A stretch of 64,000 nucleotides of DNA from Kangiella sp. TOML190 (GTDB lineage: Bacteria > Pseudomonadota > Gammaproteobacteria > Enterobacterales > Kangiellaceae), in NCBI RefSeq assembly GCF_023706045.1, contig NZ_BQYL01000001.1:1488001-1552000 (forward strand), in the 5' to 3' direction. Within the stretch, counting starts at the first letter, position 1; every line of letters starts with the position of its first letter. Positions 1-6,094 of this stretch are shown in pieces. The translations under genes and the position numbers were made by a program. The notes under the pieces were generated by a model. The model was not told the DNA's origin and did not search any database. It saw only the letters and a list, made by a program, of their open reading frames with translations.

Positions 1-23
1 TGATCGATGTCGAAGGTTAGCCG

Positions 24-1979
24 TTAACCTTTATCAAAGTATTCAATGATATTATCTCGGCGCTTTAAGATGGAATTAATCTGTTGGCTTTGTAAGTAGT
101 CCCCGAGAGCTTTATTTAACTCTTCCCGATTAAGAGCTTGTAAGGCCTTTTGGAAAGAAAATGATATTTTGGTTGGGGGTTTGAAGCGTTCATTTTGAAA
201 TAGTGCATTTTTTACTCTGAATGCGCGGGTGTGATCGATCAGCCATAGTTGAGCGTTCTTTTCTGTATACAGTTCATTGCCCGTATTTCTGTCCTCGTTA
301 TGAATGAGCCAATCAAAAATTTGCATAATATCGCGACTCGACTTTTGACTACAAAAACCACTCAGTTTTCGTTTTTCTTGAATCAATTCGCTTTTGCTAA
401 CAGAATCTTCAATCCAGTATTGTAAAATCCCTTTCATATTCTTGTAACGGTACTCCATTGTGAAAGGGACCATATTGAGCCCGAGCAAACGATCCAATTT
501 GTAGGCGGCAATATCGTAGACAAATCGATCAGCATAATTTCCTATTCGTTTCCAGCGTTTGTCTTCGAGCTTTGGATCGGTATCAAGGTATTTAAAAATG
601 GCGCGTCGCTGCTTGCCGTCAAGCTCGAAAGTTAGGCGCAAGGGCCGAGTATAAAAATCACCGAGCGTCTTCTCTTCTACAACTTTTGCTTTTTGGTAGA
701 AAGGCGCCAATTGAGCATCGCCAAGATCGTTGGCATAGAGTGGTTTTCGAACCGGATCTGGGGTTGGTTGAGTGTTAGCGCTATCATGCAGATTTAACAC
801 TTTTAAGCCGGCAGTATCAATCTGAACCAAGCTTGGGTGGCCTTTGTAATGACTTTGCAGCATACCAGTATCAAGCATGATGACCTTGCCATCAAAGCGT
901 GAACGAACTAGGCGGCTTTTATCGGGAGTATGCCCTAGAAAAATTTGATTAGCATTGAAGTAGTTTAAAGCATGATCAACGGTTAACTCCTCGGAAAATT
1001 CATGGCAATACATATTACCGCGATACCAAGTTGGCCCGAAACTATCGAAAATAAGGGAGTCAGATAGCGTTATAAACTCCCGAGCTTTTTTTCTAATCGA
1101 GCGTTTATTGAGGGCTCGACTTCTAATTTTGCCGTCAATCAGCGACTGGGCGACATCGTGTCTATCGAGTTTGTTAAAATAATACTTAAATAGCCCAGCT
1201 TCGGTTAGTTCTCTCCATAGCGTTGCATATTGAGTCAACTCATCGCGAAATTGTTGATTAAGCTGTTGCTCGCTTAGGCCAGTAGCTAATAGCTTTGGTG
1301 AAAAGCCGCCATGAGCGAATAGTTTGTTTTGTTGGCTCAAGATAAAGTCCTTACTCAATAGCCAACGACCATAGTGTCCATCCGGGGAATAGGCTTGGAC
1401 TAAACCAAAATAACCCAATGGGTAAAGATTGGTAAACTTTGCTTTACTCTCAGCATTGTCTTTTAGCGATGAGTAATCCAAAAAATCCTGATAAACCGAT
1501 TGGCGTTTTTCGGCAAGCTCTATATCGGCAAAAGAGGCATATTCAGCATCCGAGACGTAGCGCAGATCACCGCGAATATTCATGACTTCATGATTACCCA
1601 ATACCATATAAAAAGCCCCGCCAGCTTTTTCTGCTTGCACTTCCAGTTGCATAAAAAAGTCGAGAATTTTCCTAGAGTCAGGGCCGCGGTCGAGCAGATC
1701 GCCTAAGCTGACGAAAATGCGATCGCCAGCTATCCAGTTGAGCTTTTCATCGATGATTTTGCCTGCTTGTAGCAGAGTTATCATGGTTTGGTAGTCACCA
1801 TGGACATCTGCCATTACCGTCATCGGCTTAGCGCTTGCGGGTAATGCAGTCATAGCATTGATGGTAGTGGATAGCTGTGCTTTCTGAGCAGAGCGCTCAG
1901 CGGCTACAAGCGTCGCGGTGGCTAGGTTGCTAATTTGCAGAAAGACTGCTAACAAAGTGGACGATAGATAGACCTTCAT
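24..1979 (-). CDS. Periplasmic Shewanella-like PPP phosphatase fused to a PI3/4-kinase-like domain
   Basis: Seen: a 651-residue protein with a signal peptide (residues 1 to about 25). The N-terminal half carries the PPP metallophosphatase set ADVHGD (about 57-62), GDLLDRGPDS (93-102), LGNHEVMN (127-134) followed by GDLRYV, then FAHGG and FLGHT; NHEVMN..GDLRYV is characteristic of bacterial Shelph phosphatases. The last ~190 residues look like an atypical kinase of the bacterial PI3/4-kinase-like type: a candidate ATP-binding Lys in AIFKYLD, an AAYKLDRLLGLNMVPFT helix/strand, the catalytic-loop-like HNEDRNTGN (Asp about 563) and the metal-binding-like LIDHTRAF (Asp about 582). I chose ATG at 1979, which has GGAG eight bases upstream, over an in-frame TTG at 1997. 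Divergent from clpX. Substrates are unknown. Inference: opposing phosphatase and kinase activities may sit in one secreted chain. The phosphatase call is firm; the kinase call is moderate. Confidence 0.75.
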   Translation of the reverse strand: MKVYLSSTLLAVFLQISNLATATLVAAERSAQKAQLSTTINAMTALPASAKPMTVMADVHGDYQTMITLLQAGKIIDEKLNWIAGDRIFVSLGDLLDRGPDSRKILDFFMQLEVQAEKAGGAFYMVLGNHEVMNIRGDLRYVSDAEYASFADIELAEKRQSVYQDFLDYSSLKDNAESKAKFTNLYPLGYFGLVQAYSPDGHYGRWLLSKDFILSQQNKLFAHGGFSPKLLATGLSEQQLNQQFRDELTQYATLWRELTEAGLFKYYFNKLDRHDVAQSLIDGKIRSRALNKRSIRKKAREFITLSDSLIFDSFGPTWYRGNMYCHEFSEELTVDHALNYFNANQIFLGHTPDKSRLVRSRFDGKVIMLDTGMLQSHYKGHPSLVQIDTAGLKVLNLHDSANTQPTPDPVRKPLYANDLGDAQLAPFYQKAKVVEEKTLGDFYTRPLRLTFELDGKQRRAIFKYLDTDPKLEDKRWKRIGNYADRFVYDIAAYKLDRLLGLNMVPFTMEYRYKNMKGILQYWIEDSVSKSELIQEKRKLSGFCSQKSSRDIMQIFDWLIHNEDRNTGNELYTEKNAQLWLIDHTRAFRVKNALFQNERFKPPTKISFSFQKALQALNREELNKALGDYLQSQQINSILKRRDNIIEYFDKG

Positions 1980-2222
1980 GTCAATGACTCCAAGCAATGA
2001 TAACCCTTTTTAAATTAGCACAAGCAGCGCGAAAAAAGCCAGAAATTGGCACTTATTTACAAAAGCTATAAATTTGGTAACAAAACGTCATTTTTCTTTT
2101 GTTAAGTCAGTTAATTTGATAATGTTAGCCTAAAGTAGACAAATCGCATTGAATTATGCTGAATTAACCCAATTGATGGGGTTTGGCGGCAAAATTTGAT
2201 TGAATCCCCAGCAGAGGAATAA

Positions 2223-3488
2223 ATGAGCGAAACCACTGATAATAAAACACTCTATTGCTCTTTTTGTGGCAAAAGTCAGCATGAAGTCAAAAAGCTGATC
2301 GCAGGCCCACGTGTCTTTATTTGCAACGAATGTGTTGATCTTTGTAATGACATCATTATCGAAGAAGTCAAAGATATTGCCGAAGGCGGCAGTTCGCGGG
2401 ATTTACCAACGCCACAAGAAATTAGCGCTTTTTTAGAAGAGTATGTTATCGGTCAAGATCGAGCGAAAAAAGTATTATCGGTAGCGGTTTATAACCACTA
2501 TAAACGTCTCGAAAATGAGCCCCAGTCTTCTGAAAATCAGGACGTAGAATTAGGCAAAAGTAATATTTTATTAATTGGCCCTACGGGTTCCGGTAAAACC
2601 TTATTGGCAGAAACTCTAGCTCGTATGCTTGAAGTGCCTTTTACCATGGCCGATGCAACCACTTTAACCGAAGCCGGTTATGTAGGCGAAGATGTTGAGA
2701 ATATCATCCAAAAATTATTACAAAAGTGTGATTATGACGTAGAAAAAGCTGAGCGGGGTATCGTTTACATTGATGAAATTGATAAGATTTCGCGTAAGTC
2801 CGACAACCCTTCGATCACTCGCGACGTTTCAGGTGAAGGGGTGCAGCAAGCCTTATTAAAACTGATTGAAGGCACGGTCGCCTCAGTTCCGCCTCAAGGT
2901 GGCCGGAAACATCCACAGCAAGAATTTTTGCAGGTCAATACTGGTAACATTCTGTTCGTTTGTGGTGGTGCTTTTGCTGGAATTGAAAAAATCATTCAAG
3001 AGCGTACCGAAAAAGGTGGTATTGGCTTTGGCGCTGATGTCAAAGAAACGCACGATGGTAAAGCGATTGGCGAAATGCTAAAAAATATCGAACCTGATGA
3101 CCTAGTGAAATTTGGTCTTATTCCTGAATTTATTGGCCGCTTGCCGATTGTGGCGACCTTGCAAGAGTTGGACGAAGAGGCTTTGGTGCGAATTTTAACC
3201 GAGCCGAAAAATGCACTGACCAAGCAATACAATAAGCTTCTGATGTTGGAAAATGTTGAGCTTGAGTTCCGCAAAGATGCTTTGCAGGCGATTGCCAAGA
3301 AAGCGATGCAACGTCGTACTGGCGCGCGTGGTTTGCGATCGATCCTTGAAGAAATTTTATTAGACACCATGTATGAGTTACCTTCGTTAGAGAACGTCAG
3401 CAAGGTGTGCATTGATGCTGCAGTGGTGAAAGGCGAGGCCGAACCGCTTTTGATCTACGATTCACAAGCGAAAGCCGTATCCGAGTAG
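2223..3488 (+). CDS. clpX: ATP-dependent Clp protease ATP-binding subunit ClpX
   Basis: AAA+ unfoldase that recognises tagged substrates and threads them into ClpP in the cytoplasm. Seen: N-terminal zinc-binding domain with C12, C15, C34 and C37; Walker A GPTGSGKT; Walker [10 protein letters not shown]; sensor and pore region with GGAFAGIE; arginine-rich C-terminal motif RTGARGLRS. At 421 residues it has the usual family length. AGAGGAA lies just upstream of ATG 2223. The usual upstream partners tig and clpP are not present; a divergent phosphatase-kinase gene sits there instead, so clpX must have its own promoter in the 243-base gap. A rho-independent terminator separates it from lon. Confidence 0.98.
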
Positions 3489-3507
3489 CACTAAACACCA
3501 TCAATCA

Positions 3508-3534
3508 GGGCTCTTTCTGAGCCCCACTTTTTTT
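3508..3534 (+). terminator. Rho-independent terminator after clpX
   Basis: GGGCTC / GAGCCC stem with a TTTCT loop, followed by a 7-T run. It sits 20 bases after the clpX stop and uncouples clpX from lon. Confidence 0.85.
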
Positions 3535-3550
3535 GCTCAGATTGCTGTTT

Positions 3551-3570
3551 GACTCAAGCTATTTTGAGTC
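3551..3570. repeat. Short inverted repeat upstream of lon
   Basis: Perfect 7-bp arms GACTCAA and TTGAGTC around a 6-base GCTATT loop, about 100 bases before the lon start. There is no T run, so it is not a terminator. It does not match CIRCE or a sigma-32 promoter. It could be an operator or a 5'-leader hairpin; this is only an observation. Confidence 0.4.
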
Positions 3571-3670
3571 GCGGCGAGCGTTCGACGACTGACAATGCAA
3601 TAACTAAGCTTAACAATAAGCTAGATTCACATAACCAAAGGCTCTATAAGCCTCTATTAGGATAAGCTCG

Positions 3671-6094
3671 ATGCAGACCGAAGATAAAACACAAGCAATT
3701 GCCTCCAAACAACTTCCTTTATTGCCATTACGTGATGTGGTGGTTTTTCCACACATGGTGATCCCTTTGTTTGTTGGTCGCGAGAAGTCGATTTTGGCGC
3801 TCGAAGAAGCCACCAATGGCGATAAGCAGGTGATGTTGGTGGCGCAAAAAGAAGCTTCCGACGATATGCCAGAGCCGGATCAAATCTACGACTATGGTTG
3901 CGTGGCGACTATTTTACAGATGCTCAAGCTACCCGATGGCAACGTTAAAGTATTGGTGGAAGGGGTACAAAGAGCCAAGGTGGTGCAATACACCGAAACT
4001 GAGCCTATGTATGTGGCCGAGGTGGAAACGGTGCCGAGTGTTTCACTGAACCCTTCTGAAGAAGATGGCTTGTCACGAGCTGCTTTATCGAATTTCGATA
4101 AGTATGTGAAACTTAACAAAAAAGTCCCTAGCGAAATCTTAACATCTTTGTCTGGGATTGATGATCCGAGTCGTTTGGCCGATAGCATTGCAGCTCATAT
4201 GGCGCTGAATATTCAGGATAAGCAACAGATTCTGGAAATGGATAATACTTCCGAGCGCTTGGAGCATTTGATGAGCAAGATGGAAGGCGAAATGGAGTTG
4301 TTGCAGGTTGAAAAGCGCATTCGTAGTCGCGTTAAAAATCAAATGGAGAAAAATCAGCGCGAATATTATTTGAACGAGCAGATTAAAGCTATCCAAAAAG
4401 AATTAGGCGAAGGCGAAGAAACTGCTTCCGAGCATGAAGAGCTAGCCAATAAAATTGCTGACTCAGGAATGACCAAAGAAGCAAAAGAAAAAGCTGAAGC
4501 TGAGTTGAAAAAGTTAAAAATGATGTCACCGATGTCGGCAGAAGCGACTGTGGTGCGTGGTTATATTGATTGGTTGCTGGGCGTACCTTGGAAGAAACGT
4601 TCAAAAGTTAAACATGACTTATCAGCAGCAGAAGAAACGTTAAACGCTGACCATTATGGTTTGGAAAAAGTCAAAGAGCGGATTCTAGAGTATTTGGCGG
4701 TACAACAACGGGTGAAAAAACTCAAAGGTCCGGTTTTGTGTTTAGTCGGGCCGCCGGGCGTCGGTAAAACTTCGTTAGGCCAGTCCATTGCTAAAGCCAC
4801 TGGTCGCAAATATGTGCGAATGGCCTTGGGTGGGGTGCGTGATGAGGCAGAGATTCGCGGTCACCGTAGAACCTACATTGGTGCTATGCCTGGTAAGTTG
4901 ATGCAGAAAATGAGCAAAGCGACGGTTAAAAACCCACTCTTTTTGCTTGATGAAATCGACAAGATGGCGATGGATATGCGTGGCGATCCTTCTTCGGCCT
5001 TGCTCGAAGTGTTGGATCCGGAGCAAAACCATACCTTTAATGACCATTATCTCGAAGTGGATTATGATTTGTCGGAAGTGATGTTTATCGCTACATCCAA
5101 TTCGATGAATATTCCGGCGCCACTGCTCGATCGAATGGAAGTGATTCGTATCCCAGGTTACACCGAAGATGAAAAAGTGGAGATTGCAACCCGTTATTTG
5201 CTACCGAAGCAAATGAAAAATGCGGGTTTGCGAGATGATGAGTTACAGCTATCGGAATCTGGTATTCGCAGTATTATCCGCTTTTACACACGTGAATCCG
5301 GTGTGCGTAATTTAGAGCGAGAAATTGCTAAAATTTGTCGTAAGACGGTTAAGCAGCAGCTATTGGCTAAAAAGGAAAAGAAAACCATTAAGGTTCATAA
5401 AGGCAATATCGACAAGTACCTCGGAGTACAGCGCTTCGATTATGGCCGTGCTGGCGAGAGCAATCAGATTGGTCAAGTCACCGGTTTGGCTTGGACCTCG
5501 GTTGGTGGTGAATTATTGACCATAGAGTCGGTGGTGGTCGATGGTAAGGGCAAAACCAGCTTTACCGGACAGCTCGGTGATGTGATGAAAGAGTCGATCC
5601 AAGCGGCCATGACGGTGGTTAGAAGTCGTTGTTTGGCGCTGGGGATTGAACCTGAGTTCCATGAGAAAAAAGATATCCATGTGCACGTTCCAGAAGGCGC
5701 TACGCCAAAAGATGGCCCTAGTGCTGGTATTGGTATGTGTACTGCCTTGATTTCTAGTTTAACTGAGATCCCGGTGAGGAAAGATGTGGCTATGACTGGT
5801 GAGATCACTTTGCGAGGCGAGGTCTTACCAATTGGCGGCTTGAAAGAAAAATTGCTTGCCGCACACCGCGGTGGCATTAAAACCGTCATGATCCCTAAGG
5901 ATAATGAGCGTGATTTAGCTGACATACCTGCTAATATTAAGAAGGATCTGGAGATAAACTGCGTGAAGTGGATCGACGAAGTGATTGATATTGCATTAGA
6001 ACGTCCACCAGAGCCGCTAAAACCGTCCAGTTCTGGCAAGAGCAAAGGATCCGGCAAGAAGGGAACATCGAAAGCCGATATTCATCCTCATTAA
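3671..6094 (+). CDS. lon: ATP-dependent protease La (Lon)
   Basis: Homohexameric cytoplasmic AAA+ serine protease that degrades misfolded and regulatory proteins. Seen: N-terminal LON substrate-binding domain (about 14-205), central coiled region, Walker [10 protein letters not shown], Walker [10 protein letters not shown], and a C-terminal protease domain with the catalytic Ser684 in DGPSAG and Lys727 in GGLKEK. At 807 residues it is slightly longer than E. coli Lon because of a Ser/Gly/Lys-rich tail. AGGAT lies upstream of ATG 3671. It sits in the conserved clpX-lon-hupB order. I did not find a convincing heat-shock promoter in the 180-base gap. Confidence 0.98.

Follow-up and report, generated by a model that had tools for sequence, protein, structure and literature searches.

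The addition and removal of phosphate are known to share one polypeptide in the isocitrate dehydrogenase kinase/phosphatase AceK (PMC6591243). Opposing activities in a single chain, which a preliminary description of the locus studied here put forward as a new kind of phospho-switch, are therefore not new in principle. The bacterial spore-coat kinase CotH has sequence similarity to Fam20C, and the accessible part of the 2025 review that describes this (PMC12189002) mentions neither a phosphatase fusion nor a carrier for it. A review of the Fam20 kinases (PMC7948968) contains the word bacteria or bacterial once, in its reference list. Carriers of the NTT family are often regarded as marking an intracellular way of life, and the roles of those of free-living bacteria are described as open (PMC5381601). 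We have analyzed a stretch of 64 000 nucleotides of the 2.45 Mb genome of Kangiella sp. TOML190 (the window; contig NZ_BQYL01000001.1, positions 1 488 001 to 1 552 000), at one end of which a gene for a phosphatase fused to a kinase-like domain, here termed KP, lies beside a gene for an NTT-like carrier. Each part is of a known kind. The combination and its extracytoplasmic place were not found described, and a kinase–phosphatase–carrier module does not appear in the titles and abstract openings of the open-licence PMC literature, a partial coverage that makes this weak evidence of absence.

We propose that KP is a two-headed phospho-switch of the envelope, locked by a disulfide bond and fed with ATP by the neighboring NTT homologue, and we give this proposal an even chance of being right. 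In the mechanism that we infer, KP would be exported to the envelope, as suggested by its cysteines, its own N terminus and those of related proteins. The kinase and phosphatase domains would be locked together by a Cys325–Cys543 disulfide. The Fam20/PI4K-type domain would phosphorylate at least one target in the envelope, most likely a protein, and the phosphate would be taken off the same or linked targets by the Shewanella-like PPP domain. The NTT homologue would exchange cytoplasmic ATP for the external ADP generated by the kinase, with no net loss of adenine nucleotide; this outward direction for ATP is suggested by gene association and by the parallel absence of carrier and kinase.

The fusion is encoded on the minus strand, which the preliminary description had not given, and all the motifs quoted there (NHEVMN, GDLRYV, AIFK, HNEDRNTGN and LIDHTRAF) are present. 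Thus its observation is confirmed, while its interpretation is partly supported, as set out below. The existence of 43 different fused sequences rules out an artefact of gene calling. The mature KP chain was modeled by AlphaFold2 with an alignment of 31 rows, giving a predicted local distance difference test score (pLDDT) of 93.0 and a predicted template modeling score (pTM) of 0.91. A Foldseek search with the whole chain finds the Shewanella phosphatase first (E 3.4e-18), followed by ApaH, phosphatases of the PP2A/PP1 type, PI4K2 and Fam20.

The N-terminal half constitutes a full Shewanella-like PPP phosphatase, as first described, with activity predicted from its sequence. All ten catalytic positions that were checked are kept (Asp58, His60, Asp94, Arg98, Asn129, His130, Glu131, His223, Arg320 and His350), and the set of metal- and phosphate-binding elements GDxHG, GDxxDRG, GNHE, HGG and GH is present. 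The motifs in KP are DVHGD (58), GDLLDRG (93), GNHEVMN (128), RGDLRYV (136), AHGGF (222) and LGHTP (348). The Metallophos family of Pfam matches with E 1.3e-12. The nearest solved relatives are the Shewanella phosphatase chains 2z72, 2zbm and 1v73, matched in sequence at E ~1e-33, with Foldseek E values of 3e-18 for 1v73 and 8e-18 for 2z72. Related phosphatases carrying other C-terminal parts are found at L123:3-1613, where that part is TPR-like by eye, and at L109:4049-5884, where it is repeat- or Ig-like by eye.

The C-terminal ~250 residues are predicted to adopt a kinase fold of the Fam20/PI4K type, assigned at the level of the superfamily. The motifs are AIFKY (460), HNEDRNTGN (560) and LIDHTRAF (580). 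A profile of 89 family members matches FAM20A, FAM20B-like and FAM20C chains with E values of 7e-14 to 8e-11, FAM20A being the best, and PI4K2 at E ~1e-3. In the three profile alignments printed, Lys463, Asp563 and Asp582 lie opposite the Lys and Asp positions of Fam20, and the DRxxxN and D(H/N) motifs are aligned. The AlphaFold2 model of the domain (89-row alignment; pLDDT 92.9, pTM 0.89) was compared with the PDB using Foldseek. PI4K2 is matched with E 2.2e-7 and a query TM-score of 0.48, and Golgi casein kinase/Fam20 with E 3.4e-7 and 0.58; other PI3/4-kinases are also found, query TM-scores ranging from 0.37 to 0.59 among the 50 matches listed. The PI3/4-kinase-like character noted at the outset is thus borne out, and no confident non-kinase fold, the contrary outcome named then, appeared in the structure prediction. 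Predicted fold, family profile and the covariation described below together rule out a chance resemblance.

Comparison with curated families gives a more graded picture. The PI3/4-kinase, HipA and Fam20 families proposed for a profile search are all matched by the single sequence below their curated Pfam scores (HipA_2 E 7.9e-6, Fam20C E 0.002, PI3_PI4 E 0.003). For Fam20C (PF06702) KP reaches 18.2 bits as the whole protein and 20.1 as the domain, against 26.8. HipA_2 (PF20613) lies near its cut-off of 27 bits, scoring 25.7 with the whole protein and 27.7 with the domain alone, over only 44–46 residues; it matches 50 of the 89 family kinase domains. TIGR03843, the SCO1664 family, matches all 89 at E 0.01, and the KP values of 33.1 and 37.3 bits fall far below its cut-off of 172.4. 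At E 0.01 none of the 89 kinase domains matches the CotH family of Pfam.

These relatives bear upon the nature of the substrate. Fam20B is a xylose kinase, and the PI4-kinases act on lipid. The main rival to the proposal retains the entire module and places the kinase substrate among the small molecules, glycans or lipids of the envelope, and we consider it improbable. The lipid kinases PI4K2 are among the closest solved folds, a glycosaminoglycan xylosylkinase is among the profile matches, and a Kdo kinase model is weakly matched by 19 of the 89 members (best E 7.7e-6). A protein target is favored by the closest solved phosphatase, which is a protein-tyrosine phosphatase, and no glycan or lipid gene was recognized in the partly annotated neighbor clusters common to at least three of 87 loci.

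Two residues of the predicted active site vary in a concerted manner. Positions 463 and 489 rank first of 24 426 pairs by corrected mutual information in 100 rows, sequence weighting being the only control for phylogeny. In 104 sequences the combinations are R-E in 34, K-E in 20, K-D in 16, Q-N in 15, H-Q in 6 and others in 13. From this top ranking and these pairings we read the two positions as the Lys–Glu ion pair of kinases, and the ranking gives indirect support to a pocket in which the lysine, its acidic partner and the two aspartates, Asp563 and Asp582, would converge. In the kinase-only frames of loci L040–L100 the usual combinations are Arg–Glu and Gln–Asn; nine of the 15 Gln–Asn rows have a fetched stretch that includes a carrier or phosphatase (hand count). 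Kinase folds can perform other chemistry, as in SelO and SidJ, and the usual lysine is absent from most kinase-only frames, so the domain might use ATP for another reaction such as the transfer of AMP in the manner of SelO. We think this very unlikely: with a phosphatase as partner, the attachment of phosphate is more plausible than that of AMP, and the Lys–Asp pair and DxxxxN motif of KP are conventional.

KP appears to be an exported protein, in keeping with the signal peptide first suggested. Its hydrophobic segments are confined to the N terminus, and a crude script finds signal-like N termini in 33 of the 43 fused sequences, flagging a lipobox in L002, L015 and L032. L012 and L013 are negative by the script and have lipoprotein-like signals by eye. 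KP contains exactly two cysteines, one in each domain. Both are present in 38 of the 43 fusions and neither in five (L035, L057, L064, L066 and L095, all acidobacterial records), while no sequence has just one. Four more fusions inspected by eye conform, L117 having both and L118–L120 neither. Only two of 61 kinase-only frames have a cysteine at the position equivalent to Cys543. This perfect co-occurrence is most simply read as an inter-domain disulfide, which would probably form in an oxidizing compartment.

How general is the fusion? Relatives were collected from 61 genomes, including that of the window, together with a scan of a genome collection using the kinase domain that gave 103 confirmed relatives, of which the best 80 were kept. 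In loci L021–L104 there are 95 kinase-bearing open frames, 34 of which also contain the phosphatase. Pooling all loci and removing duplicates leaves the 43 fusions and 61 kinase-only frames, the latter mostly acidobacterial and with a signal-like N terminus in 38 (crude script). A few of these run off the end of their contig and may be incomplete fusions; at the start of L089 there is a stretch like the tail of the phosphatase. Within a 369-genome sample of the class, matches at E 1e-10 occur in only three genomes, that of the window included. A rapidly built tree of the kinase (100 rows) requires three changes between fused and solitary states, at least two of them forced by starred branches, and the fused L064 protein is sister (100, starred) to a kinase-only frame of the same locus. 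Acidobacterial genome G436, which holds L057, has 13 kinase-domain matches, and L057 itself contains three kinase-only frames together with a fusion, a phosphatase and a carrier.

When strict residues are scored in the 43 fusions, both halves are intact in 24, only the phosphatase in 15, only the kinase in four, and none has lost both. In L064 and L095, counted among the 15, the DxxxxN and D motifs are retained and the difference lies at the lysine. Two tandem pairs, L051/L105 and L039/L106, flank a carrier; in each the first copy has an intact phosphatase and a decayed kinase, and the second the reverse. In genome G026 a copy with both halves intact (L017) is accompanied by a kinase-only-intact copy (L107) on another contig. 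The reciprocal decay of the duplicated pair suggests that both activities mattered. The ratio of nonsynonymous divergence (dN) in kinase to that in phosphatase is 0.74–1.79 in ten intact pairs, which are not mutually independent; two decayed Kangiella pairs have values of 3.56 and 2.03, and two intact–decayed pairs 1.84 and 2.28. Faster evolution of the kinase domain after decay is not a general rule, as the decayed pair L085–L102 has a ratio of 1.05.

The decayed copies raise the question of whether the kinase-like domain transfers phosphate at all. It might instead be a nucleotide-sensing regulator of the phosphatase, with the carrier linked for some other reason. This would account for the 15 fusions with incomplete kinase residues and intact phosphatase, 11 of which retain both cysteines (the other four neither), and the Fam20 group includes pseudokinases, FAM20A being the best profile match. 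We nevertheless judge a purely regulatory module unlikely. The 24 doubly intact fusions retain every strict kinase residue, and regulation solely in cis is hard to square with the four that keep the kinase residues and lose those of the phosphatase (three with both cysteines, one with neither). The binding module offered earlier as an alternative fits part of the family, namely the 15 fusions with incomplete kinase residues.

Clustering of the neighboring genes at 87 loci reveals one recurrent partner, a polytopic membrane protein. The frequency and neighbor survey called for in the preliminary description yields an NTT-like carrier beside many of the 43 fusions. In the window genome the gene order is tig, clpP, carrier, fusion, clpX, lon (names by inspection; the in-window part is 1–6094), and the open frames of carrier and fusion end nine bases apart, stops excluded. 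Members of the clpX and lon clusters are also present in the stretches of carrier-less loci L026, L036, L110 and L111. The TLC ATP/ADP transporter family (PF03219) matches the window copy with 22.1 bits against a cut-off of 21, and several relatives more strongly, with 12 of 20 carrier members matched at E 0.01. The NTP/NDP exchange transporter model TIGR00769 matches ten of the 20 (best E 2.9e-21), with scores shown of 16.9–70.2 against a cut-off of 387.2 bits, and does not match the window carrier at E 0.01. The carrier family profile finds the chlamydial ADP,ATP carrier 9j3n at E 9.1e-27 and plant NTT1 9j3j at E 6.7e-17; its alignment with a full-length NTT of G057 has a probability of 98.9. 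The neighbor is thus a homologue of the NTT ADP/ATP carriers with a putative transport activity.

Some further features of the carriers may be recorded. That of the window genome (L114:8366-10018) has a C-terminal match to He_PIG, a putative Ig domain, as have ten of 20 aligned carriers, and a second, weaker paralogue is located apart from the fusion at G000:C1:30383-31645. Frames in L030, L038 and L045 were left out of the carrier hidden Markov model as antisense; their strong profile matches speak against that assignment, and they are probably second, real carriers. Two successive carrier genes apparently lie beside the fusion in these Halieaceae-type loci (L030:7161-9902, L038:7086-8900 and L045:7095-9806, all on the minus strand).

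The presence of the carrier tracks the integrity of the kinase. It is therefore a candidate answer to the scarcity of ATP outside the cytoplasm, to which the preliminary description had drawn attention. Defining a strong carrier as a match at E <=1e-140, 18 were found in 40 genomes; 17 adjoin a fusion and the other is at G021:C23. A strong carrier stands beside the fusion in 17 of 18 genomes with an intact kinase (the exception being G039), and in none of six with only decayed kinases (G008, G011, G013, G016, G226 and G390), and it is absent from all 16 lacking the kinase; the kinase state of G051 and G057 was checked with the whole protein only. Each of these classes also has some genomes with weaker homologues at other sites, mostly at E 1e-61 to 1e-72 with a few to 1e-124, including seven of 18 same-genus genomes searched, among them G000 (the window genome) and all four with decayed kinases.

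At the level of the locus we tallied 38 of the 39 fusions with an intact phosphatase, L085 being omitted because its contig ends there. Kinase and carrier are both present in 21, the kinase alone in three (L016, L032 and L044), the carrier alone in four (L020 and L051, in tandems, L064 and L095) and neither in ten; L057 was scored as negative, its carrier lying ~4.7 kb away. When there is no adjacent carrier the kinase half has in most cases decayed and the phosphatase is left. Pairing on the tree, the carrier follows the kinase in an average of 2.2 of five independent pairs and does the opposite in 0.6; omitting the tandems the values are 2.3 of four and 0. Among 24 listed arrangements 10 are convergent, 10 have the carrier upstream and four downstream, and these three arrangements argue against the inheritance of a single gene order, although one order is conserved within Kangiella. 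Nor is the carrier an attribute of all Shewanella-like phosphatases, as none is present in the stretches fetched for L109, L112 and L113, three phosphatase-only loci of related genomes.

The same three components occur as separate neighbors in Acidobacteriota, in the order kinase, carrier, phosphatase in L067 and carrier, kinase, phosphatase in L086. The fetched stretches of L057, L075 and, weakly, L091 also contain a carrier; those of L052, L077 and L094 have a phosphatase and no carrier. Several separate acidobacterial phosphatases start with Sec-like or Tat-like (RRxF) signals, by inspection. A further 29 genomes, chosen partly for loci with a carrier or phosphatase, contain 33 phosphatase loci. 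Within 5 kb (split matches being merged by hand in these counts) there is a kinase at 25, fused in 16 and separate in nine by hand count, and a carrier at 15 against 0.18 expected for uniform placement. Eight hold-out genomes (G440–G447) were selected because their fetched kinase locus lacked both phosphatase and carrier; their nine phosphatase loci have a kinase in three, a carrier in three (0.03 expected) and neither in five. Over 70 kinase loci, a phosphatase alone is within 5 kb in 14, a carrier alone in three and both in 16.

Two acidobacterial loci have a phosphatase and a carrier with no kinase nearby, and this arrangement would suit nucleotide salvage, in which the phosphatase trims external nucleotides, the carrier imports the products and the kinase domain is auxiliary. 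The characterized NTTs serve parasites and plastids for uptake (PMC5381601), the nucleotidase models ApaH and PrpE match the phosphatase half below their cut-offs, and the fold matched next after that of the Shewanella enzyme is ApaH. Yet in both sequence and fold the phosphatase is nearest to the Shewanella protein phosphatase, and four Kangiella genomes with decayed kinases keep it with the strong carrier absent. We give salvage very little credence.

A number of observations weigh against an envelope switch fed by the carrier. These two acidobacterial loci are among them, as are the 37 of the 70 kinase loci with neither partner. An adjacent carrier is absent beside the intact kinases of L016 and L044, and of L032 and L107, in whose genomes a second fusion has one (that of the L032 genome, G452, with both halves intact). 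The Kangiella genomes G008, G011, G013 and G016 have a weaker paralogue elsewhere (E 1e-66 to 1e-69), which counts against a simple rule of no carrier, no kinase. The window copy barely passes the PF03219 cut-off, and MFS_1 also matches 12 of the 20 carrier members. Position 463 is Arg, Gln or His in 52 of the 61 kinase-only frames, and Lys in five. The reciprocal decay probably goes back to one duplication rather than two, since the kinase-only-intact copies form one clade (97, starred) and the two kinase-decayed partners another (100, starred). The genomes surveyed are not phylogenetically independent, and starred branches leave only three to five independent kinase changes that can be paired (on average 2.2–2.4 the same way, 0–0.6 opposite), too few for a sign test to reach 0.05 on the tree.

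Taking the envelope switch of KP as our preferred reading, a wider proposition may be advanced, tentatively and with somewhat less than even confidence. Free-living bacteria may run an ATP-fueled, reversible phosphorylation outside the cytoplasm, in which ATP/ADP exchange by an NTT carrier feeds an exported Fam20-type kinase that is disulfide-locked to, or encoded together with, an exported PPP phosphatase. If so, this would be a bacterial counterpart of phosphorylation in the secretory pathway, with the two enzymes docked in a single exported polypeptide, and would explain how a kinase could function where ATP is scarce. It would also give NTT carriers a role besides energy theft, and those of free-living bacteria a testable job. 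In two phyla the NTT homologue accompanies a kinase and a phosphatase of export type, and in the surveyed genomes its strong form is gone where the kinase has decayed.

Table 1. Features of the KP locus, numbered from the first nucleotide of the window.
Feature	Position	Strand	Basis
KP fusion gene, 651 aa	24..1979	minus	ATG 1979-1977, stop 24-26; kept in 43 different fused sequences
Putative signal peptide, residues ~1-27	1899..1979	minus	hydrophobic N terminus; signal- or lipobox-like N termini in relatives
Shewanella-like PPP phosphatase domain, residues ~50-390	810..1832	minus	Metallophos, Shewanella chains, motifs, Foldseek
Cys325, phosphatase domain, proposed disulfide partner of Cys543	1005..1007	minus	co-occurrence
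Predicted Fam20/PI4K-type kinase domain, residues ~398-648	36..788	minus	profile, model, Foldseek
Lys463, counterpart of kinase beta3 lysine	591..593	minus	strongest covariation with residue 489
Asp489, acidic partner of Lys463, Glu in many relatives	513..515	minus	covariation
Cys543, kinase domain, proposed disulfide partner of Cys325	351..353	minus	co-occurrence
DRNTGN, Asp563 (catalytic position) to Asn568	276..293	minus	profile alignment, motif check
Asp582 of LIDH, metal-binding position	234..236	minus	profile alignment, motif check
3' end and stop codon (18-20) of convergent NTT/TLC-like carrier gene	1..20	plus	551-codon frame, ~-1635 to 17, rest left of window

How does the locus compare with the known systems? 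The cold-active protein-tyrosine phosphatase of Shewanella (1v73, 2z72 and 2zbm) has the full motif set and fold in common with KP; its solved chains are of 336–342 residues, whereas the KP version is fused to a kinase. The neighboring gene is a divergent relative of the NTT/TLC carriers such as chlamydial Npt1 and plastid NTT1, and differs from them in its linkage to an export-type kinase and phosphatase. AceK is cytoplasmic and has a single active site. KP is different, with two separate domains and an export-type N terminus, and the shared active site of AceK is not found in it. A further parallel is with the FAM20 kinases, the Golgi casein kinase FAM20C, FAM20B and the pseudokinase FAM20A, which have in common with the kinase domain of KP the predicted fold and the positions of the key Lys and Asp residues. 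These kinases are non-cytoplasmic, as KP would be to judge by its N terminus. KP differs in that it is bacterial, is fused or linked to a PPP phosphatase, scores below the curated Fam20C threshold, and has an Asn in the catalytic loop where the aligned Fam20 chains have Glu.

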